A stretch of 43,632 nucleotides of DNA. Source: Syntrophobacterales bacterium. Lineage in GTDB: Bacteria > Desulfobacterota > Desulfobaccia > Desulfobaccales > 0-14-0-80-60-11. A program made the translations under genes and the position numbers. Where the stretch lies: contig JAILZL010000025.1 in NCBI GenBank assembly GCA_023512475.1, positions 1-43,632 of the forward strand. Direction: 5' to 3'. A model generated the notes under the pieces. It was not told the DNA's origin. It saw nothing but the letters and a program-made list of their open reading frames with translations, and searched no databases. Shown here in pieces: positions 2,740 to 12,751 of the stretch (position 1 is the first letter of the stretch; each line of letters begins with the position of its first letter).

Positions 2740-3450
2740 ATGGAGCTTCAGCTCGAAGGCATCGCCCGGGATTTTTGGGACGGGCGGGAGCTCAGACGGG
2801 TGCTCTTCCCCCTGAACCTCAGCCTCACTCCGGGGGAGCTGACGGTGCTGGCCGGACCTTCAGGCAGCGGCAAGACCACGCTGCTGTCCATCATCGGCCT
2901 GGTGTTGCGGCCCTCGGAGGGGCGTATCCTCCTGGACGGCCGGGAGGTGACGGGCCTGCCGGATGACGCCGCTGCCACCCTCCGCCTGTCCCGGTTCGGC
3001 TTTGTCTTTCAGCAGCCCCTGCTCATCGAGGGCCTCACGGTGCGGGAGAACCTCTTCCTGGCGGTGGGCATCCAGGGCGGACGGATCACGGCGGCCATCA
3101 GGGGCCGGGCGGAGGAGCTTTTCACCTCCCTGGGGCTGCAGGGCACCGGGGACATGCTCCCCGCCATGCTCTCCGGGGGCATGAAGCAGCGAGTCTCCAT
3201 CGCCCGGGCTCTTATCCGGAATCCGGCCGTGATTCTCTGCGACGAGCCCACCTCCTCCCTGGATGCCGAAAACGGGCAAGTGGTCATGGACATCCTGAAG
3301 CGCATTGCGGTGGAGGAAGGCCGCCTCGTGGTGGTGGTGTCCCATGACGCCCGGGTCTTTCCCTATGCCGACCGGCTGGTGAAACTGGAGAACGGCCGCG
3401 TGGTGGCGGACACCCGGCCCCTGTCGGAAGGCGCGGAGGCCGGGGCATGA
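2740..3450 (+). CDS. ABC transporter ATP-binding protein, LolD/MacB/DevA type
   Basis: The 236-residue ATPase subunit of the exporter carries all the motifs: Walker A GPSGSGKTT near residues 43-51, a Q-loop (FVFQQP), the ABC signature LSGGMKQR, Walker B VILCDEP with the catalytic glutamate, a D-loop and an H-loop histidine (VVSHD). Its size and QQP/LSGG context fit the LolD/MacB/DevA group. The start is ATG 2740 or the GTG directly before it at 2737; longer versions run into the permease gene in a non-homologous frame. The gene starts 38 bp after the permease stop and ends in a 4-bp ATGA overlap with the adaptor gene. Confidence 0.9.
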   Translation: MELQLEGIARDFWDGRELRRVLFPLNLSLTPGELTVLAGPSGSGKTTLLSIIGLVLRPSEGRILLDGREVTGLPDDAAATLRLSRFGFVFQQPLLIEGLTVRENLFLAVGIQGGRITAAIRGRAEELFTSLGLQGTGDMLPAMLSGGMKQRVSIARALIRNPAVILCDEPTSSLDAENGQVVMDILKRIAVEEGRLVVVVSHDARVFPYADRLVKLENGRVVADTRPLSEGAEAGA

Positions 3451-4386
3451 AACTCCGCACCCTCCTTTTGCTGCTGGCGGTGGTGGCTGGAATCGTGGGG
3501 GCCACCGGGTATATTCTCCATTCCCTGCGGCAATCCTCCCGGCCGCCGCGCCCCGGGGAACCCGTGCGGCTGGAGGAGGCCCCCTTCCGGGTTTACGGCC
3601 TCATCGAGCCCTATGAGCGGGAGGTGTACGTGGGCCCCCTCCAGGCCCGGAGGGTGGTGGCCGTGTATGTGAAGGAAGGGGCGGCGGTACGGCGGGGCCA
3701 GCCGCTGGTGCGCCTGGATGACGACCTGGAGCGCCGGGCCCTGGCCGTGGCGGCCTCCCGCTTGGAAGAGCAGATCCGGAAGCTGGCCCTGACCCGGGAT
3801 ACCCTCCGGCGCCGGGAGGCCCTGTGGCAAAAGAAAACCATCCCGGAGTTCGATTACAGCCAGGTGCAGCTCACCGTCAGGCTGGAGGAGCAGCAGGTGG
3901 CCTCAGCCCGGGCGGAAATGGAGCTGCGCCGGGTGGAGCTGGACAAGCTCACCTTGTATCCCCCCATCGACGGAGTGGTCTATAAACTGGATGTCCGCCT
4001 GGGGGAACAGCTCACCCCCCAGGACTATAAGCGCATCATTCTGGGGCGCCCGGAAAAGCAGGTGCGGCTGTTCGTGGAGACCTTCTGGCTCCACCGGGTG
4101 AAGCCGGGGGATCGCTTTGTGGTCAAGGAGGCGGAGACCCTCAGCGAAATCGGCGAGGGGGAGGTCTATGAGCTCTCCCCGTATGTGGGGGAGCGAGTTC
4201 GGCCGATAAACCATTTCCTGAGGGTCTGTTGAGCTCTCCCCGTATGTGGGGGAGCGAGGCTTCAGGAGCGAGGACAGCCGGGAACGGCTGGACACCAAGT
4301 ATTGCCAGGCCCTCCTCCGGCTGCACCCCCGGCACCACCCGCCCCTGGGGCTCCTGGTGCTCTGCGAGCGCCCTTCCGGCCGTTAA
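3447..4386 (+). pseudogene. HlyD/DevB-type adaptor gene, broken by a 61-bp insertion
   Basis: This is the membrane fusion protein of the exporter. It has an N-terminal membrane anchor (residues 3-24), a lipoyl half-motif (about 65-90), a coiled-coil hairpin (about 95-165) and a second lipoyl half ending in the LYPPIDGVV stretch typical of HlyD family proteins. As it stands the frame reads to a stop at 4230-4232 (261 aa), the last ten residues being out of register. After a second copy of the stretch coding YELSPYVGER (4231 onward) the natural C-terminus continues in another frame to TAA at 4384-4386. It includes SEDSRERLDT, the kind of sequence DevB proteins have there. Removing one 61-bp unit gives an unbroken 292-residue frame. 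The truncated form lacks the last beta-barrel/membrane-proximal part and is probably inactive. An assembly error is possible. Confidence 0.85.
4169..4258. repeat. CRISPR-like unit inside a gene: 29-bp repeat, 32-bp insert, 29-bp repeat
   Basis: A 29-bp sequence (4169-4197) recurs exactly at 4230-4258, with 32 bp of unrelated sequence (4198-4229) between. The period of 61 bp and the 29/32 split are those of type I-E CRISPR arrays. The repeat begins TGAGCTCTCCCC and holds the palindrome CTCCCC-GTATGT-GGGGAG, close in layout to I-E repeats (GAG..CCCCG...GGGG). The flanks do not match the insert, so this is not a plain tandem duplication. One copy is native coding sequence of the adaptor gene. 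The simplest reading is off-target spacer integration by a Cas1-Cas2 complex, which copies its target exactly like this. Confidence 0.8.
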
Positions 4387-4403
4387 CCGGATGTCACCCG
4401 CTT

Positions 4404-4428
4404 CCCGGGGCTGGGGCGCCTCCCCGGG
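4404..4428 (+). terminator. GC-rich hairpin after the exporter operon
   Basis: CCCGGGG at 4404-4410 can pair with CCCCGGG at 4422-4428 across an 11-nt loop. It lies 18 bp after the adaptor stop and before the STAND gene. There is no U-tract, so intrinsic termination is doubtful. Confidence 0.3.
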
Positions 4429-4559
4429 GTAACCTCCTTTGGGGCTCACCCCCGCCGAAATGAAGCTCTCCCCCTCGAGGCGGCCTGTGACGCGGGGAGA
4501 TCCTGAGCCAGCCCGGTTTCTTGGACATAACGGATGAAAACCTGGAGGAAAATGAGCCT

Positions 4560-4895
4560 ATGGCGGATGCAAAAGAGATTCTGATCAGCCTGGCCCCGGA
4601 CCATCTGGAAGAGGTCATTCGCCGGGCGGTTGAGTTCCGCACGCGCGTTAACAAGAATTTACAAAAATTTTTTGAATTTATTCTGGAGCGTTTTATTTTT
4701 ATCAACGGCTTCAGAACGCCACTTACTGCCCCTGACCATCTCTTATGTCTGGAAATCAAAAGATTATTGAAAAAAAACCTGGCATCAAACCACTGGCCGA
4801 AGCAATTTTTGAGGTGTGGATGGAATCCCATCCGGAATTGCGCCAGGCTGTCACGGACTTTCTCTGCGACGAACAGATTGATCTTCTTGACCTGA
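4560..4895 (+). CDS. N-terminal piece of the STAND protein, or a small overlapping gene
   Basis: The ATG at 4560 follows GGAGGAA (4544-4550) at a good distance and opens a frame of 111 codons. The first 72 residues look like a real, helical, charged domain (MADAKEILISLAPDHLEE...). After the A8 run at 4770-4777 this frame becomes unlike protein (rich in N, W, R, C) and stops at 4895. The -1 frame from the same run continues smoothly as PGIKPLAEAIFEVW into the giant ATPase. I therefore think these residues are the true N-terminus of the next gene, joined by ribosomal frameshifting, by phase variation of the A-run, or through a lost base. A separate small protein of 111 aa is the alternative. 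The base composition here is AT-richer than the surroundings. Confidence 0.55.
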   Translation: MADAKEILISLAPDHLEEVIRRAVEFRTRVNKNLQKFFEFILERFIFINGFRTPLTAPDHLLCLEIKRLLKKNLASNHWPKQFLRCGWNPIRNCARLSRTFSATNRLIFLT

Positions 4896-7800
4896 TGGCA
4901 GCGCCAGAGGGCTCCGAAAGGCTGCCGCGCGAGGTGGTGGAGCCCGTGGAGCGCGCCTATCCTCATTTTCAGACCCGGGATATCCGATTGATGTGTCAAG
5001 GTCTGGCATGGGTGATCCCGGAGGAAGGGGCGATGAGAGTGGACGAGAAGGACCAGGAAACGGCCGGGGGCGGGGGGATGTCCCCCTTCTGGCTCTCGCT
5101 TCTGGAGAAAATGCGGCAGCTCCCCATGGATGCCCCCGAGTGGCAGGAGTTTGAGGCCTTCCTCGCCCGGGCCCGGGACCTGGCGGCGGAGAAGGAAGGG
5201 GAACGCCGGGAGTTTTCCGGGAGAAGGGAGCTTGAGGAGGCCTTGCAGCCGCTGACCACCGATGCCGTCCGCCAGGCGCTGCACTTTTTCGGTTTCAGCG
5301 ACATTTTTGCCTGGGAGGCGGAGGCGGTGCCCCCGGGGGAGGCGTCGGAGCTGGCGGCCAGGGTGCGGGATCTGGTGGAGAGGCTCCTGCGCCATGAGGA
5401 ACTCCGGGCCCGGACCCCTGCCACCCTCCCCGAAATGAAGGAATGGCAGGCGGCCTTGCAGGCCCTGGAGGACGAGATCCTGGCCCTCAAAGACCAGATA
5501 GGCTCCCGGCTGGCCCCGGAGCCCGAGGCCCCGGAGGCTTCCCCTGCCGCCGCGGTCCCGGCAGAGGAAGCCGGGGAAGGCCCCGGCACCCCGGAGCCGG
5601 AAAGCGTTCCGGGCGCCTCGGAGGTGCCTGAGGCGGAAACGGCGCCGGCGGCGGAGGAGGCCAGCATAGAGGCGCACTCGGAAGCCCCGGAGGAAGCCGC
5701 CCTCCCCCCTCCTCCGGAAGCAGAAAGAGTGCCCACGGAAGAGCCGGTGGAGCTGAAAGAGCCGGACAGCTGGGAGGCGTATTTCTGGGAGCTGGTGGCG
5801 CAGGATGATCTGGCGGGCGCCTACTGGCTCTGTCGGTCCCTGGAAGCCCAGGGCCTCTCCGCCCCCGTGCCCTCCCAGGTGATGGCGGCGGTTCAGGGTG
5901 TCCGCTGGCTCAAGGACGACGGCGAGGAGCTGGCCACTGATCTGAGCCGCCTGGCGGCCCAGGTGGACAGGCCCGGCAGGGACGATGCGGCGGTGATGCT
6001 GGGGTTGGCCGCCGCGCTCCGGGGCTGCCTCATCCTGCCAGCCAATGACATGTTCGGCTGGCTGCAGGTGCCCCACTGCCTGATGCCCGAAGGCGGGGGA
6101 CTGGTGGGCGCGGTCCAGGATTGTGTGCAGAAAGGCTGTCGCCTCTTTTCCCTGGATCTCCTGGAGGCCGGGAAGGCGGAAGAACGGGAAACAGCCATCC
6201 AGGAGGTGTGCCGGAAGGTGCGCGACCGGCTGGAAGAGGCCCAGGTGGCGCGCCTGAAGATCCGGCGGGCCTCCCAGGTATGGAATTACATGGCCCGCAA
6301 GGACCTGGCCGATTTCCTGAAGCCGGTAGTCGAAGACAACCGGAGCCAGGCGGCAGAAGTGCACCGGCAGCTGGAAAAATGGCGGGACCGGGCTTTCATT
6401 GAAGCCCAGATAACGCGCATTGACCAGGAGGTGACCGGCCTCAAGAAGCATCCCATTGTCGGGGAGCCCCGGAAACGCATGATCCGGGAGGTGCAGGAGC
6501 TCTGCCAGGAGGCTGAGCGCTGGTGCGATCTGGTGGAGCTGGACCGGAAGGTAAGGGAGCAGGGCGACTGGCTCTTCAACCAGGCGATGACCCTCCGGCA
6601 GCGGATACACCATTCCCTGTCGGCAGTGGAGGCGAGCCTGGAGCGCCTGAAGGAGCCTGCGGCCCTGGCCGCCGCGGCCTCCTGTCTCCGGCGTTCCCTG
6701 TCCCAGGTGAAGGCCACTTTGAAGCTCTCCCCCGGCACCGCGGAGGAGCACGACCCCTGGGCGTGGCTCTATCAGCCGGGACGTCCCCTGGAGACCGCCC
6801 TCCGCCGGCGCCTCCTGCTTCTGCCTGAAATCCCCCTGGATGAGGACTATGCCCCTGAGGAGACCGCCCTGCCCCTGGTGGCCCAGGCCCTGAAAGAAGC
6901 CGGACAGGCGAAGGATCCCCTCCTCCAGGCCTATGAATTCTACCTGGAAAAGGAAGACTACCGGATCCTGGAAAGCGACCTGCTGCCGGCCCTCAGCGGG
7001 CGCCCGGAGCAAAAGGAGTTGGAATGTCGCTATCATGACGCCCGCCACCGTTCCGCGCGCCTGCTGGACCAAAAGATCCAGGAAACCGGGACCGCCATTG
7101 AGCAGGCCCTGATGGACGGGCTCATTTCCGACCAGGAGCGCGCCGAGTATGACGCCTTCCTGTCGGCCCTCAAGCCGGAGGAGGAATCCACTATTCGCCC
7201 CCTGCACAGGCAATTGGAGGAAATTCTCCAGAAAATGAAGGAGGCCCGGCAGAGCCGCCTGGAGGACCTGCGGGAGAAATGGCGCCAGATGGAGAAACGC
7301 CTGCTCACCACCTCCCGCATTCCGGCGGCCGAGCGGGAGCGGGCCATTGCGGCCGTGCGGCGCAGTATGGCGGAGCAAGACACCCGGGTGGTGGAGGAAC
7401 ACCTGGCCCATCTGGACCAGGTGCTGGACGGCTCCCAGGGGCTGGATCCCGGGTGGTTCGACCCCCCATCTCCTTCCCGGGGGCGGGGAGTCGGCGATTT
7501 TCTCAAGGCCGCCCGGGCCATTGAAGACCACCTGACCCAGGGTCACTTTCAATGGCGGGAGATGGAAAGCTGCCTGCGCCAGGGGCGCAGTTGGGCCGGC
7601 CTCAGATTTGGCCCGGTGCCGCCCCCCCGGCGGGAGGAAGCCTGCGCGGCGATGCGGGCCTGGCTGGCCTTGAAGCAGGGAAACAGCGGCAATCAGAAAA
7701 ATCGGGAACACCTGCTGACCCTGTTGCAATACCTGGGTTTCAGCCTGGACACGGGGCCGAACCCCGCCGTGGTCATTGAGGAGAGGATGGCCCAGGGGCT

Positions 7801-10279
7801 CCGGGGGACAGGATACATGTGGGCCAGCAGCATCCTGGCCAAGCCCTTCCCCCAATTCGGCTCCCTGTCCGGCAACCACTACGATGTGATCGTCCTCTGG
7901 GACCGGCCCGACGCGGACACGGTGGCCAACAAGCTCCTGGAGAAGCGCCTGGGACAGCAGCAGCCGGTCCTCCTCCTCTATCTGGGCCGCCTCAGTGACC
8001 GCCGGCGCCTGCAGCTGGTGCGCCGGGAATTCTCCGCGGTGGCGGTTCTGGATGAAACCTTGCTCCTCTTTCTGGCCCAGGAGCCGGACAACCGCCTGCC
8101 CACTTTTCTCCGGTGCGCCCTGCCCTTTTCCACCCTGAACCCGTATACCCCCTTCCAGGCCGGAGACGTGCCCCCCGAGATGTTTTACGGCCGGCAGGAG
8201 ATGGTGCAGGAGCTCCTGAAGCCCTCCGGCAGTTGTCTGGTCTATGGCGGGCGCCAATTGGGGAAATCGGCCCTCCTGCGCCATGTGGCCCGGGAGTTCC
8301 ACCATCCCGAACGGGGTCAGTATGCCCGGGTCAAAGACATCAAACTGGTGGGCGATCCCAAGGCTGACCTCCCGCCTCGGACCATCTGGCGGATTCTCCG
8401 GGATGCCCTTAAGGAAATGGGGCTGTTCTCCGAGCGCCTCACCACCGAAAATCCCGCGGAGATTGAAAAAAAGCTCCGGAATCTGCTGGCGGAGCACCCC
8501 ACTTACAAGATCATGGTGCTGTTCGATGAGGCCGACAATTTCTTCGAGGCCGACGTCAAGGACAATTTCCGGGAGGTGGAAAGATTCCGGATTCTGATGT
8601 CCGAAAGCGGGCGCCGTTTCCGGGTGGTGTTTGCTGGGTTGAAAAACGTGCTGCGATTCCAGGGACTCCCCAACCAGCCCTTTGCCCATCTCGGCGCCCC
8701 CCTGTGTGTGGGGGCCCTGGAGCCGCAGGCGGCCCGGCAATTGGTGAAAGAACCTCTGGAGGCCCTGGGGTATGTCTTTGAGGATGACTCCCTGATTCTC
8801 AAGATCCTGTCTTACACCAACTACCATCCGGGTCTGATCCAGCTCTTCTGTCGAACCCTCCTTCAGAACCTGCGGGGACGACCTTTTATCCTGTCGTCAG
8901 ACAGCCATGGTCCCCTGCCGCCCTACCCCATCAGCCGGGAGTGGGTGGAATCCGTCTATCGGAACGACGCCATCAGAAGGGAAATCAAGGCCCGGCTGGA
9001 ATGGACCCTGGACTTGGACGAGCGTTACCAGGCCATTGCCTGGACCATGATCGTGGACCAGATGGAGGCCCGGGACAGCTATGCCCGCTCCTATGGGGCC
9101 GGCGAAATCCTGGACCTGGTCAAGGGTTGGTGGTCCAAAGGCTTCAGTCACACCACCGGCGAACAGATCCGGACGTTTCTGGAGGAAATGTGCGCCCTCA
9201 ACGTCCTGGTGCGCACCAGCTCCGGGACGTACCGGCTCCGCAGTCCCAACCTGGTCCGCCTTTTGGGGACGGAATCCGAGATTGAGGACCGCATCCTGAA
9301 CCTGGCGAACAAAACCCCGTCCGAGCCTTTTGATGAAAAAGGGCATCATGCCCCCCTGGATGAGGCGGCCCGACGCTACAGCCCCTTCCTGTATTATCAA
9401 AGCGCCCGACTGAAACAGGAAAGGTTCGGGGTCGGCCTGATCTTCTCCTCAGAAGCCCTGGGGCTGGATCTGATCCCCCAGGCGGTGGGCCGGTTCATCC
9501 CCCGGGAATTTCCCCCGGAGCTGGCCGATTGCTCGGAAATTCCCGGCACCATCACCCGAGGGACGGACTTATCCCCCTGGCTGAACCGCTACCTGGGGCA
9601 GCAGGCCCGCAAGGAAAGGCTCATCCTTTATCGGCTCCTCACCGGGAGCCCCGAAGAGGACCCGGGCAGTCTGGTGTCCGAGGCCATTTCCCTCTGCCGG
9701 TCTCACCAGAAGACCCGGACAAAGTGGTTGCGGATATTTTTCCTCTTTTCCCCCCAGGCGGCCTGGCGTTGGCTCTCCTGGGACGAATATCAGACCTGGG
9801 AGAACGCCGCGGACGCCTTGGTCATCACGCAGCGCTGGAATGCCGTGGGGGTGCGCCAGCGGCTGGAGCAGACCGGCAAGCAGGATACCGAGGAGATCGT
9901 CCGCCGGGTCCTGGAAGTCACCGGCGGCTGGCCCCTGTTGCTGGATGAATTATTCGACCGCTGCGGCGACCGGGATACCCCCCTGCCGGAGTTGACCCAA
10001 CTGGCCGCCGACCTGACGAACCCCCGCCATTCCCTGCACCACCGGTTTAAAGCCGCCCTGGGAGTGGGCGAGGAGTCTTTCCCCTCCCGGGTGCTCCGGC
10101 ATCTCCTGCGGGAAAGGGAAGTGGAGCGGGAACTGTTCACTCCCGAGCTCGTGGAGGAGGAGGCCTCCCGGGACCAGTGGGACCGGGCCGTGGAGCATCT
10201 GGCGCGGTTGGGGTGCCTCGAGGAGAGGGAGGGGGTGCTGCGCCTTGACCCCGTCGTCCTCACGGTCCTGGAGGCCTGA
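4745..10279 (+). CDS. Giant STAND/AAA-type ATPase, candidate defence protein
   Basis: This 1844-residue protein has no close named family that I recognise. The order is: helical N-terminus (1-255); a linker rich in P, A and E (about 259-339); a long helical, partly coiled-coil region (about 345-985); an alpha/beta domain (about 1010-1130, with NHYDVIVLW); then an NTPase domain opening with NPYTPF and FYGRQE. Walker A is GGRQLGKSA (about 1168-1176) and Walker B is IMVLFDEAD (about 1256-1264). Winged-helix-like and further helical modules follow to the end. The NTPase resembles ORC/STAND-type switches such as those of Avs proteins. No Shine-Dalgarno precedes ATG 4745, and a stop at 4733-4735 closes the frame upstream. 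Translation thus either enters from the frame of 4560 or begins at ATG 4820, which follows GAGG. The HEPN-motif gene starts 3 bp after the stop. I infer an antiphage or abortive-infection sensor; this is not demonstrated. Confidence 0.72.
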   Translation: MSGNQKIIEKKPGIKPLAEAIFEVWMESHPELRQAVTDFLCDEQIDLLDLMAAPEGSERLPREVVEPVERAYPHFQTRDIRLMCQGLAWVIPEEGAMRVDEKDQETAGGGGMSPFWLSLLEKMRQLPMDAPEWQEFEAFLARARDLAAEKEGERREFSGRRELEEALQPLTTDAVRQALHFFGFSDIFAWEAEAVPPGEASELAARVRDLVERLLRHEELRARTPATLPEMKEWQAALQALEDEILALKDQIGSRLAPEPEAPEASPAAAVPAEEAGEGPGTPEPESVPGASEVPEAETAPAAEEASIEAHSEAPEEAALPPPPEAERVPTEEPVELKEPDSWEAYFWELVAQDDLAGAYWLCRSLEAQGLSAPVPSQVMAAVQGVRWLKDDGEELATDLSRLAAQVDRPGRDDAAVMLGLAAALRGCLILPANDMFGWLQVPHCLMPEGGGLVGAVQDCVQKGCRLFSLDLLEAGKAEERETAIQEVCRKVRDRLEEAQVARLKIRRASQVWNYMARKDLADFLKPVVEDNRSQAAEVHRQLEKWRDRAFIEAQITRIDQEVTGLKKHPIVGEPRKRMIREVQELCQEAERWCDLVELDRKVREQGDWLFNQAMTLRQRIHHSLSAVEASLERLKEPAALAAAASCLRRSLSQVKATLKLSPGTAEEHDPWAWLYQPGRPLETALRRRLLLLPEIPLDEDYAPEETALPLVAQALKEAGQAKDPLLQAYEFYLEKEDYRILESDLLPALSGRPEQKELECRYHDARHRSARLLDQKIQETGTAIEQALMDGLISDQERAEYDAFLSALKPEEESTIRPLHRQLEEILQKMKEARQSRLEDLREKWRQMEKRLLTTSRIPAAERERAIAAVRRSMAEQDTRVVEEHLAHLDQVLDGSQGLDPGWFDPPSPSRGRGVGDFLKAARAIEDHLTQGHFQWREMESCLRQGRSWAGLRFGPVPPPRREEACAAMRAWLALKQGNSGNQKNREHLLTLLQYLGFSLDTGPNPAVVIEERMAQGLRGTGYMWASSILAKPFPQFGSLSGNHYDVIVLWDRPDADTVANKLLEKRLGQQQPVLLLYLGRLSDRRRLQLVRREFSAVAVLDETLLLFLAQEPDNRLPTFLRCALPFSTLNPYTPFQAGDVPPEMFYGRQEMVQELLKPSGSCLVYGGRQLGKSALLRHVAREFHHPERGQYARVKDIKLVGDPKADLPPRTIWRILRDALKEMGLFSERLTTENPAEIEKKLRNLLAEHPTYKIMVLFDEADNFFEADVKDNFREVERFRILMSESGRRFRVVFAGLKNVLRFQGLPNQPFAHLGAPLCVGALEPQAARQLVKEPLEALGYVFEDDSLILKILSYTNYHPGLIQLFCRTLLQNLRGRPFILSSDSHGPLPPYPISREWVESVYRNDAIRREIKARLEWTLDLDERYQAIAWTMIVDQMEARDSYARSYGAGEILDLVKGWWSKGFSHTTGEQIRTFLEEMCALNVLVRTSSGTYRLRSPNLVRLLGTESEIEDRILNLANKTPSEPFDEKGHHAPLDEAARRYSPFLYYQSARLKQERFGVGLIFSSEALGLDLIPQAVGRFIPREFPPELADCSEIPGTITRGTDLSPWLNRYLGQQARKERLILYRLLTGSPEEDPGSLVSEAISLCRSHQKTRTKWLRIFFLFSPQAAWRWLSWDEYQTWENAADALVITQRWNAVGVRQRLEQTGKQDTEEIVRRVLEVTGGWPLLLDELFDRCGDRDTPLPELTQLAADLTNPRHSLHHRFKAALGVGEESFPSRVLRHLLREREVERELFTPELVEEEASRDQWDRAVEHLARLGCLEEREGVLRLDPVVLTVLEA

Positions 10280-10282
10280 AAA

Positions 10283-11542
10283 ATGTGGGGGGACAATCTG
10301 GCGGTTTTGCCCCAGACGCAGGCAGTGATCCAAGGTCTCACCGAAGAGCTTGCCAATCGCAGGTCCTTGGTGGTGCTCCTGCCCCGGCCACTGGACGGCC
10401 GCTGGATCTGGGACCTGGTGCGTCGGGAGCTGATCCGCCGGGATTTCTGGGTTGAAGAGATCCCCCTGACGGAATGGAGGGGGGAGGAGGACCTGCGGCG
10501 CTTTCTGTGGCAGCGACTGCAGTGGGCGGGTGAGCCGGCGGCGGGAGCCCGCCCCGACTCCCCTCCCCTGTATTCTCCCACCCTGATTATCTCCCTCACC
10601 GAGGCGGATGGACTGCCGGAAGAAAAGCTGGACTCCCTCCTGGAGACCTTGAGGTGGTGGGCCGGGAAATCCCATGCCGGGGAGCCTCCCATGTCGCATA
10701 CTGCCCTGTGTCTGATGGGCCGGTGGGCCTCCCTGGGCTCCGCCGTCCCCCAGACCGATGTCCGCCTGGCCGTTCACCAATGGCGGGGTGTGCCCACGGC
10801 ATTGGAGGTCCAGCTCTGGTGCCGTCTGGCCCAGGGCGGACAGGAGCCGGACCCTGCCAGCAGGTGGCGGGAACACCTTTTGCCGGCCCTCTGCGGCCCT
10901 GACTGGCGGCTGGCGGAATACCTGTGGGACAAGGTGCACCTGGGCGTGAAGGAATTGATGAGCCATCTGACCGCCTACGCCCGCGATCTGGGATGGAGCC
11001 GCGAATACCTGGAAAAATTAAACCTGAACCTCTTCCTCCACACTCAGATGGATCCCTCCTTTCTGGCCACGCAAAAGGAGTTTTGGCCTCTCTGGTCCGA
11101 AGGATTGCTCCACCGCACTCCGGAGTATGGAGAGGAATTGCATAGCGCGGCCCTGGCGGTGCTGGGAAGGGAGGACCTCATCTCCCACCGGGTGTGGCGC
11201 GGCCAGGTGCAGTTCCTTTTGCCGCTGATCAATCAGATCCGCCTGGCCATGGTCTCCCAGATCGCCATCCGGCACGGACCCGACTGGCCCCTTCGGTGGG
11301 ACCGGCCGCCGGATGATAGGGAATATGAGGCCCTCAAAGCCAACCCCCTGGATGTCCAATGGGGATATGTGTATTATTGCATCCACAAATTCCATCAACT
11401 CAACTCTTTTAAACAATGGTTGCCCCTGGCCGAAAGCGCCAAGAATCTCAGGAATGAATTGGCCCATTACCGGCCGGTGGAATTTTATCATTTCAAAAAC
11501 TTTTGGAACCGGGCTCATAATTTTCTCAAATCCATCAGTTGA
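10283..11542 (+). CDS. HEPN-motif protein with a degenerate NTPase-like N-terminus
   Basis: The C-terminal part (about 280-415) of this 419-residue protein is helical and holds R390-N-E-L-A-H395, the R-x4-H signature of HEPN ribonucleases, in the context LRNELAHYRP. The N-terminal part (about 1-180) alternates strands and helices like a P-loop ATPase: LVVLLPRPLDGRW (29-41) sits where Walker A would be, and TLIISLTEADG resembles a Walker B strand. No GxxxxGK[ST] is present, so it may be an inactive NTPase-like adaptor. The ATG at 10283 is 3 bp after the ATPase stop, with GGAGG at 10269-10273, so the two are surely co-translated. I infer that the ATPase senses a trigger and this protein cleaves RNA. 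The HEPN call rests on one motif and helical context. Confidence 0.7.
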   Translation: MWGDNLAVLPQTQAVIQGLTEELANRRSLVVLLPRPLDGRWIWDLVRRELIRRDFWVEEIPLTEWRGEEDLRRFLWQRLQWAGEPAAGARPDSPPLYSPTLIISLTEADGLPEEKLDSLLETLRWWAGKSHAGEPPMSHTALCLMGRWASLGSAVPQTDVRLAVHQWRGVPTALEVQLWCRLAQGGQEPDPASRWREHLLPALCGPDWRLAEYLWDKVHLGVKELMSHLTAYARDLGWSREYLEKLNLNLFLHTQMDPSFLATQKEFWPLWSEGLLHRTPEYGEELHSAALAVLGREDLISHRVWRGQVQFLLPLINQIRLAMVSQIAIRHGPDWPLRWDRPPDDREYEALKANPLDVQWGYVYYCIHKFHQLNSFKQWLPLAESAKNLRNELAHYRPVEFYHFKNFWNRAHNFLKSIS

Positions 11543-11562
11543 ATATCATTTATTTTGATATT
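11542..11562 (+). terminator. AT-rich hairpin at the end of the HEPN gene
   Basis: AATATCA at 11542-11548 pairs with TGATATT at 11556-11562 and is followed by two more T residues. The stem is weak and starts on the last base of the stop codon. It may be a terminator or simply an AT-rich boundary. Confidence 0.3.
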
Positions 11563-11626
11563 TTGTCCTCCCGCTTTGAGATTGATTGAATATTTCCTGC
11601 GAGATTCTGATATGCTGTCACCACGT

Positions 11627-11660
11627 CCCGCGCCGGCTGGCCCCGGGCCAGGGGCGCGGG
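11627..11660. repeat. Strong GC-rich inverted repeat between the defence locus and tRNA-Leu
   Basis: CCCGCGCC at 11627-11634 pairs with GGCGCGGG at 11653-11660, with an inner stem TGGCCC/GGGCCA. It lies about 85 bp after the HEPN gene and 87 bp beyond the 3' end of the leftward tRNA-Leu. It could stop transcription from either side, but neither strand shows a U-tract. Confidence 0.45.
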
Positions 11661-11746
11661 GCGGCTCATGGTCTTGACCCGGAAGGGGCAGAGAAATCAG
11701 GATATTCCGGACAGATGGACGGCAGCGGGGAACAGTATTATCTGCC

Positions 11747-11833
11747 TGGTGCCTGGGGCCGGACTCGAACCGGCACGGGGAACCCCCCGAGGGATTTTAA
11801 GTCCCTTGCGTCTACCCGTTTCGCCACCCAGGC
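11747..11833 (-). tRNA. tRNA-Leu (anticodon UAA)
   Basis: The minus strand folds as an 87-nt class II tRNA. The acceptor stem GCCTGGG pairs perfectly with CCCAGGC, followed by discriminator A and an encoded CCA. The anticodon stem AGGGA/TCCCT closes the loop CTTAAAA, giving anticodon TAA. A long variable arm and a GGTTCGAGTCC T-arm are present. It reads UUA/UUG. The 3' end faces the STAND/HEPN locus and the remains of a tyrosine recombinase lie on its 5' side, so this tRNA is a likely past integration site. Confidence 0.96.
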
Positions 11834-11867
11834 CGTCTGTTATTTCACCAAGTGAGAGGGGCTCCTC

Positions 11868-12340
11868 TCAGCCTCCACGGCCGTGGTGATTATGTAGATG
11901 AATCCCTTTCCCCATTTTCCCCACCCAGAGCTTCACCTTCTCCTTGCTGACTGTATTATAGCGTTTGAACACCGTCAAGGGTTTGTGGCCCGTGGCCGCG
12001 TGGCCTGCCAGCCGTCCGTGGTTGATGGCCGTATGCTGCAGATCATGAAAGGAAAAATCCTCAATTCCCGCCCTCCGACAGGCCGCCTTGAACGCCTCCC
12101 TTGCCGACCTGATTGCTCTCCTCTTCCGGCTGAACACCCGGGGTCGGGGGCAACCCTCGGGGAGTCCCGAAACATGGCCATTATCTCCGGGTGCAATGGC
12201 ACCAGCCGCCCTTCCCTGGTCTTGGTGTCCTCCGGCCGCAACTTGACAAATCCCTCTTTCACCTCCGGTTGGCCCCAGGTCAGGCCTTCTGCAAGCAACT
12301 CTCCTCATCCGCTTTATGCATGAAGGTGCTGAGAGACCCC
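11868..12340 (-). pseudogene. Decayed tyrosine recombinase (integrase) fragment
   Basis: Read across frames, the minus strand holds the catalytic half of a phage-type integrase. First comes MRR near 12320 (the box I arginine region, normally RRGE). In the next frame come ELLA-like residues, then GLTWGQPEVKEG and EDTKTREGRLVPL (to about 12180). Back in the first frame are AGIEDFSFHDLQHT (about 12030-12075), GHKPLTVF and the tyrosine in FKRYNTV (about 11958). At least two frameshifts break it. The box II motif HxLRxT reads HDLQHT, so a catalytic arginine is also lost. The N-terminal core-binding domain is absent. It is a relic of an element that inserted next to tRNA-Leu. Confidence 0.8.
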
Positions 12341-12751
12341 CTATGCAGCTTTCGTGAATAATCCGGGATAGGAGAACCGCCGCTGCGGATTCCATCTGCG
12401 AAAATTACAAAGATTTTGTAACAGTATTGCTGGGACATGACACTTAAGCGGCAGCCAGGGCACCCGGCACCATCCCGGACGGAGCGGGGTCCGCCCCGGA
12501 CCGGCGCCGGGGTGACCGGAAGGCCTGAAGCTCTCCTGCGGGCTTAAGGGAGCCTCCTTCACCGAATATGGCGTCACCCTGACCGTGGCCAGGGGATCCC
12601 CTCGCCGGCGGGCTCTCTGTCCGGGTCTGTCCTTATGGGGCCATGAAGATGGCCTGGGAGTGAGAGGGAGGCTTTCGGCGCCGGTGGTGCCCAGGGGTCA
12701 AGTCCCGGGGGCCTAGCGCCTCAGAGGGGCCTGAACGGAGAAAGGGAGGTC
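12341..12751. other. Intergenic stretch with no recognisable gene
   Basis: Between the integrase relic and the second tRNA-Leu I see only short frames with no recognisable protein. The first 90 bp are AT-richer and may belong to the lost integrative element. The remainder is GC-rich without clear repeats or promoter hexamers. Confidence 0.5.

Follow-up and report, generated by a model that had tools for sequence, protein, structure and literature searches.

We report a two-gene locus in a 43,632-nucleotide contig of a Syntrophobacterales bacterium (JAILZL010000025.1, assembly GCA_023512475.1; this whole stretch is hereafter the window), where a very large gene for a STAND-type ATPase, called here A, is followed by a smaller gene, B, whose product would join an inactive STAND-like domain to a HEPN-type domain. 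With a probability of about 60%, we read the pair as a mobile, two-protein conflict module dependent on nucleoside triphosphates (NTPs), in which A would be the sensor and switch and B the HEPN effector, RNA would be cut and growth would be arrested. The observations that underlie this reading are the pairing itself, the ATPase motifs of A, the predicted fold of B, the invariant HEPN residues, the exchange of the partner gene and the mobility of the locus. The two genes and their main elements are the following.

4745-10279, plus strand: gene A, STAND-type ATPase, 1,844 amino acids (aa) from the ATG at 4745 (reading of the open reading frame, ORF)
8246-8269, plus strand: Walker A of gene A, GGRQLGKS, residues 1168-1175 (G, G, R, L, G and K invariant in 51 relatives)
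8513-8536, plus strand: Walker B of gene A, MVLFDEAD, with FDEAD carrying D1261, E1262 and D1264 (D, E and D invariant in 51 relatives)
10283-11542, plus strand: gene B, protein of 419 aa read as inactive-STAND-like plus HEPN (AlphaFold predicted local distance difference test, pLDDT, 92.3, and predicted template modelling score 0.89; homologues downstream of A)
10283-10990, plus strand: N-terminal AAA+/STAND-like domain of B, without Walker A (Foldseek, VIA, alignment)
11171-11539, plus strand: C-terminal helical domain of B, HEPN-type (HEPN_Swt1 being the commonest Pfam match)
11450-11467, plus strand: HEPN motif RNELAH, R390-x4-H395 of B (invariant in 55 B proteins)

The product of gene A comprises a helical and variable N-terminal part (about residues 1-1030), an ATPase core and a C-terminal domain. 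In the AlphaFold model of residues 880-1844 (pLDDT 89.5), the core finds its nearest folds in ORC2 (Z 14.9) and the STAND ATPase 2qen (Z 14.6); the matches, which take in STAND, ORC and NLR ATPases, also include the plant protein RPP1 (Z 12.9) and CED-4 (Z 11.8), and in Pfam the protein passes the cut-off of nSTAND1 (PF20703; E 4.3e-8, 33.6 bits against 27.1). Sequence profiles run against solved structures gave no convincing match. An AAA+ core with both Walker motifs, whose nearest folds are STAND and ORC proteins, is what defines a STAND NTPase, and such a core is found in A; the STAND-type ATPase proposed by an earlier, sequence-only reading of this DNA is thus borne out by fold matches, nSTAND1 and Walker motifs alike. 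Against L010, the nearest relative, with which A shares 66% identity over 1,476 codons, the ratio of nonsynonymous to synonymous substitution rates is about 0.08, with synonymous sites saturated; this indicates that A is a real protein under purifying selection on the sense frame, for which reason the long antisense ORFs lying across it are regarded as spurious.

Gene B starts three bases after the stop of A. Foldseek relates its N-terminal domain to clamp loader and ORC structures, and the best VIA match is the STAND domain of EfAvs5 (Z 11.5, root-mean-square deviation 5.5, 236 aligned residues). The GK[ST] loop of Walker A is absent from the alignment of B proteins and, because an AAA+ fold is thus predicted without that loop, the preferred reading of the domain is an inactive STAND. 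The Pfam iSTAND model (PF19995) matched none of 52 B proteins at E <= 0.5, and gave weak matches in four relatives of A. The C-terminal alpha/beta domain of A was considered as a further inactive STAND akin to B; hhalign gave this a probability of 0.9%, and the idea was abandoned. As for the C-terminus of B, R390 and H395 are the sole invariant columns across 55 B proteins from many phyla, and HEPN_Swt1 is the commonest Pfam match (18 of 52 B proteins, best E 1.8e-5), with scores under the gathering score in the two members shown individually. On these grounds the C-terminus of B is assigned to the HEPN type as a putative RNase, in agreement with the R-x4-H HEPN partner first proposed.

A further argument for the proposed reading comes from the distribution of the two genes. 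An alignment of the A core was scanned against 84,980 species genomes, giving at least 537 confirmed stretches, from which 80 loci were kept; in these, relatives of A span at least 19 phyla, and the A-B pair recurs in at least 17 bacterial phyla, so that the pairing is far beyond chance. The relatives of the C-terminal half of A that were detected first lay on plasmids of very different bacteria, and several had a gene of 377-510 aa directly 3' of A. When 7,429 ORFs from other loci were searched with a profile of six B proteins, 58 homologues emerged, 55 of them directly 3' of A and the remaining 3 further downstream of it. The start of B falls between -31 and +20 nt from the stop of A in 57 of 63 cases, with a 4-nt overlap in 29, exact overlaps being somewhat favoured by the choice of the start nearest to that stop. 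At the genome level, all 15 HEPN-type genomes examined carry a single B, which adjoins A, and B is absent from seven genomes in which A has no neighbouring B. Among 297 genomes of the window's phylum, A occurs in three and B in two, every B adjoining an A, and no B apart from A was found in the 319 genomes searched.

Both genes are missing from 58 relatives, and searches with A alone or B alone against close relatives, phages and viral contigs returned nothing or too little. Horizontal transfer is suggested by the tree, since 28 changes of phylum are needed against a minimum of 18; in the same tree, cyanobacteria without B are nested within B-bearing lineages. The sequence-only reading had also named what would speak against it: no pairing in other genomes, a C-terminus unlike HEPN, or a clear match to a known non-defence family. 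All three were examined within the reach of the tools used; conserved pairing was found, the C-terminus of B carries HEPN features, and no known non-defence family was matched.

In several lineages the place of B is taken by other genes, or A itself carries additional domains. In five Streptosporangiales/Actinomadura loci, a beta-CASP metallo-beta-lactamase RNase gene with an intact HxHxDH motif follows A where B would stand, overlapping or adjoining it (L059, L069, L077, L078 and L088). In Cupriavidus and in one genome of the window's phylum, A is followed by a protein matching DrmE_C over the cut-off and then by a helicase. DrmE belongs to DISARM, whose role in phage defence has been validated, and in these two loci (L007, 4873-17265; L126, reverse strand) A heads a DISARM-like operon; a 685-aa protein near the DrmE-like gene of L126 was considered as MZB/DUF1998, an identification that was not confirmed. 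The A protein of Azospirillum carries fused pPIWI_RE_X, MID and RNaseH domains, that of Bradyrhizobium is annotated alike, and in both organisms the B protein bears an extra AAA_33 kinase-like domain. In L006 (1987-13427) and L009 (2446-13401), a fusion of pPIWI-RE domains and the STAND ATPase precedes a HEPN protein with a polynucleotide-kinase-like AAA_33 domain. A pPIWI RNaseH fusion is also present on one contig of a viral collection.

Finally, a full sigma-70 stands at the N-terminus of A in eleven relatives devoid of B, those identified being cyanobacterial. Cyanobacterial relatives of A without B include L002 (4999-12204), L033, L038, L039, L042, L044, L058 and L085, among others, several of them with complete sigma-70; a sigma factor under STAND control, if that is what they are, would be unusual. 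Taken as a whole, these arrangements raise a broader and more tentative possibility, to which we give somewhat less than even odds, namely that one ancient STAND motor spanning many phyla is the shared trigger of interchangeable outputs (HEPN RNase, beta-CASP RNase, DrmE with helicase, PIWI-like protein or sigma factor) within an unnamed immune family.

The mobility of the locus can be followed in the window itself, where the relevant elements are these.

4372-11744, strand not applicable: A/B-bearing segment of about 7.4 kb, missing from a same-genus genome (alignment to that genome, G002)
11747-11833, minus strand: tRNA-Leu(UAA), 3' border of the inserted segment (ARAGORN, Rfam, flank 98.9% identical in G002)
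11868-12395, minus strand: integrase remnant between two tRNA-Leu genes

The flanks of the segment, window positions 4223-4371 and 11745-11835, align to sites only 395 bp apart in the same-genus genome, which therefore presents the empty site, and A/B is mobile. No repeat of the attachment-site kind was detected where the segment is inserted. At the position of the integrase remnant that genome carries about 3 kb of different sequence, because of which the tRNA-Leu/integrase-remnant site looks like an integration hotspot. A general link between A/B and tRNA genes was rejected, tRNA proximity not being general among the loci.

The mechanism that we propose would proceed as follows. The long variable N-terminal region of A would be the likely site of trigger sensing or scaffolding; upon the trigger, the STAND ATPase of A would bind ATP and change state. 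The inactive STAND-like domain of B would then dock on the ATPase of A, in the manner of mixed active/inactive AAA+ rings, and docking would bring HEPN domains into contact and so form an active RNase, able to cut host and/or invader RNA and thereby to arrest growth. We infer the binding of A to B, the cutting of RNA by B, the invader as trigger and the arrest of the cell. Under this scheme A/B is probably a STAND-triggered RNase conflict system; an antiphage role is plausible, and the pair is a candidate defence system.

The 5' end of gene A deserves separate consideration, for two further elements lie there.

4560-4769, plus strand: N-terminal segment of gene A, in a frame that differs from that of the main ORF (homology to the N-termini of relatives)
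4770-4777, plus strand: A8 homopolymer, break point of the reading frame of gene A (sequence, and homology on both sides)

The ORF at 4521-4895 resembles the N-termini of A relatives (33% identity and E 2.7e-4 with L017; E 0.002 with L011), and this homology is carried on in the main frame past the A8 run. Because the homology spans both frames, gene A is considered to be split by a frameshift at that run; with the N-terminal segment rejoined, it would reach about 1,900 residues. The start at 4560 that the first reading had given to the locus was therefore meaningful, that frame being the N-terminus of A, shifted from the main ORF. The frameshift may stem from mutation, assembly error or slippage. 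In the zero frame, A AAA AAC at 4770-4777 resembles a -1 slippery site; since the RNA predicted to fold downstream of it shows nothing remarkable (z -1.4), a programmed frameshift is not claimed.

Several points weigh against a conflict module acting through RNA cleavage. The copy of A in the window, being frameshifted, may be inactive, and no Pfam HEPN family matches the B protein of the window itself. Furthermore, the HEPN region was barely covered by fold searches: the model of B at residues 297-419 is helical and confident, the fold-search rows concern mainly residues 1-310, and for this reason the HEPN assignment is drawn from the motif, its invariance, the Pfam matches and the predicted helices. 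The sigma-70 fusions suggest that at least some relatives act on transcription, not on RNA cleavage. Moreover, no excess of PADLOC families was found near A, in a small sample that counts families rather than proteins (148 families in 115 neighbours, 228 in 119 controls from the same genomes). The defence-island setting claimed at first is accordingly weak, the CRISPR repeats and the tRNA being local features.

The same absence of enrichment would agree with a module for stress response or RNA quality control, in which the STAND ATPase senses the state of the cell and directs a HEPN or beta-CASP RNase or a sigma factor and serves no specifically antiviral purpose. This is the alternative that survives best, though we consider it unlikely, at roughly one chance in five. 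Outputs that include both RNases and sigma-70, as well as the single copy found per genome, are in line with it; nevertheless, a conflict system better fits the sporadic distribution (3 of 297 genomes of the phylum, absence from 58 relatives), the empty site and plasmid carriage, and the links to pPIWI-RE and DrmE.

The tight coupling of two genes with a HEPN effector in a mobile context recalls, in turn, the MNT-HEPN pairs, and would agree with an addiction pair of the toxin-antitoxin kind, in which B is an RNase toxin that A keeps inactive and the mobile segment is stabilised. We regard this as improbable: the active site of A, an ATPase of very large size, is conserved, and A is kept with a non-HEPN partner or with none in several lineages, which a simple antitoxin would not explain. 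Least probable is that the HEPN part of B is a dimerisation or binding module and that the effective activity resides in other domains of A: some HEPN families are non-catalytic (PMC3710099) and the HEPN match here consists mainly of a motif, weak Pfam matches and predicted helices, yet R390 and H395 are the sole invariants in 55 sequences, as catalysis predicts, and the gene that takes the place of B in actinobacteria encodes an RNase whose HxHxDH motif is intact.

With regard to known systems, neither A nor B matched any family of the PADLOC-DB 2.0.0 models at E <= 1. The closest precedent is the nSTAND2 system, a mobile two-gene operon predicted by Kaur et al. (2021, eLife; PMC8195603, Fig. 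6C) with a STAND in each protein, the inactive one fused to an effector, most often GT4 or HEPN; the layout of an active STAND and an inactive STAND with HEPN is common to both. In contrast to nSTAND2, A is nSTAND1-like (PF20703), with a variable N-terminal part of about 1,000 aa, and PF20702 has no match over the cut-off in the source genome and nine other A-bearing genomes, and none at the A locus; associations with beta-CASP, DrmE, pPIWI-RE or sigma-70 do not appear in the section of the nSTAND2 account consulted. The first reading did not recognise the pairing as a named system, and no PADLOC model matches it. The novelty of A-B is to be qualified, because a two-gene layout of active and inactive STAND with HEPN had already been predicted in 2021 within another STAND family. 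No description of the A-B pair was found in the literature searched, which largely left out subscription papers and preprints, so that a prior description is possible.

Other systems share single elements with A/B. Antiviral STAND NTPases of the Avs (AVAST) type have the STAND sensor fold in common with it, EfAvs5 being the protein nearest to the N-domain of B in VIA. In Avs proteins effector, STAND and sensor lie on one chain, whereas A/B places the putative RNase on a separate protein and fits no PADLOC model. BREX and MoxR-vWA systems have iSTAND components (PMC12839542, PMC7159879), and resemble A/B in that an inactive STAND subunit accompanies components that are active and driven by nucleotides; unlike them, the window locus has no PglZ, BrxC, MoxR or vWA partner, and its inactive STAND carries HEPN in the same chain. 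Swt1-family HEPN domains fused or linked to AAA+ ATPases in the Ava_2192/DUF499 systems (PMC3710099) likewise show a Swt1-type HEPN working with an AAA+ ATPase, whereas in A/B the restriction-modification operon partners of DUF499 type were not seen and HEPN lies on its own iSTAND-like protein. The pPIWI-RE systems, to which the fusions of some A relatives with pPIWI_RE_X, MID and RNaseH are akin, were described as a stand-alone gene or as a three-gene island with a restriction endonuclease and a DinG helicase, neither HEPN nor a STAND ATPase being mentioned there (PMC3702460). As for DISARM of the DrmE class, the likeness extends to the DrmE_C gene and the helicase that follow A in two relatives, and it is absent from the window locus.

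Two features lie further upstream in the window. At the contig edge there are two exact 36-nt repeats of the CRISPR (clustered regularly interspaced short palindromic repeats) type, at 16-51 and 88-123, and the array probably continues off the contig. Closer to A, a short tandem duplication (4175-4258) truncates an HlyD-like adaptor gene (3447-4232) of the upstream ABC exporter operon.

If the proposed reading is true, a large family devoted to immunity or growth arrest, with at least 537 genome stretches and at least 19 phyla for A, has been missing from the defence database and from the literature searched. The swap of HEPN for beta-CASP beside the same motor, together with the PIWI and sigma-70 fusions, would then constitute a natural experiment in which one switch ATPase is coupled to differing outputs, and partner exchange and fusions make the idea of pairing between active and inactive STANDs directly testable. 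Should the reading of a shared motor also hold, effectors directed at RNA, at DNA and at transcription would be interchangeable within one unnamed immune family.

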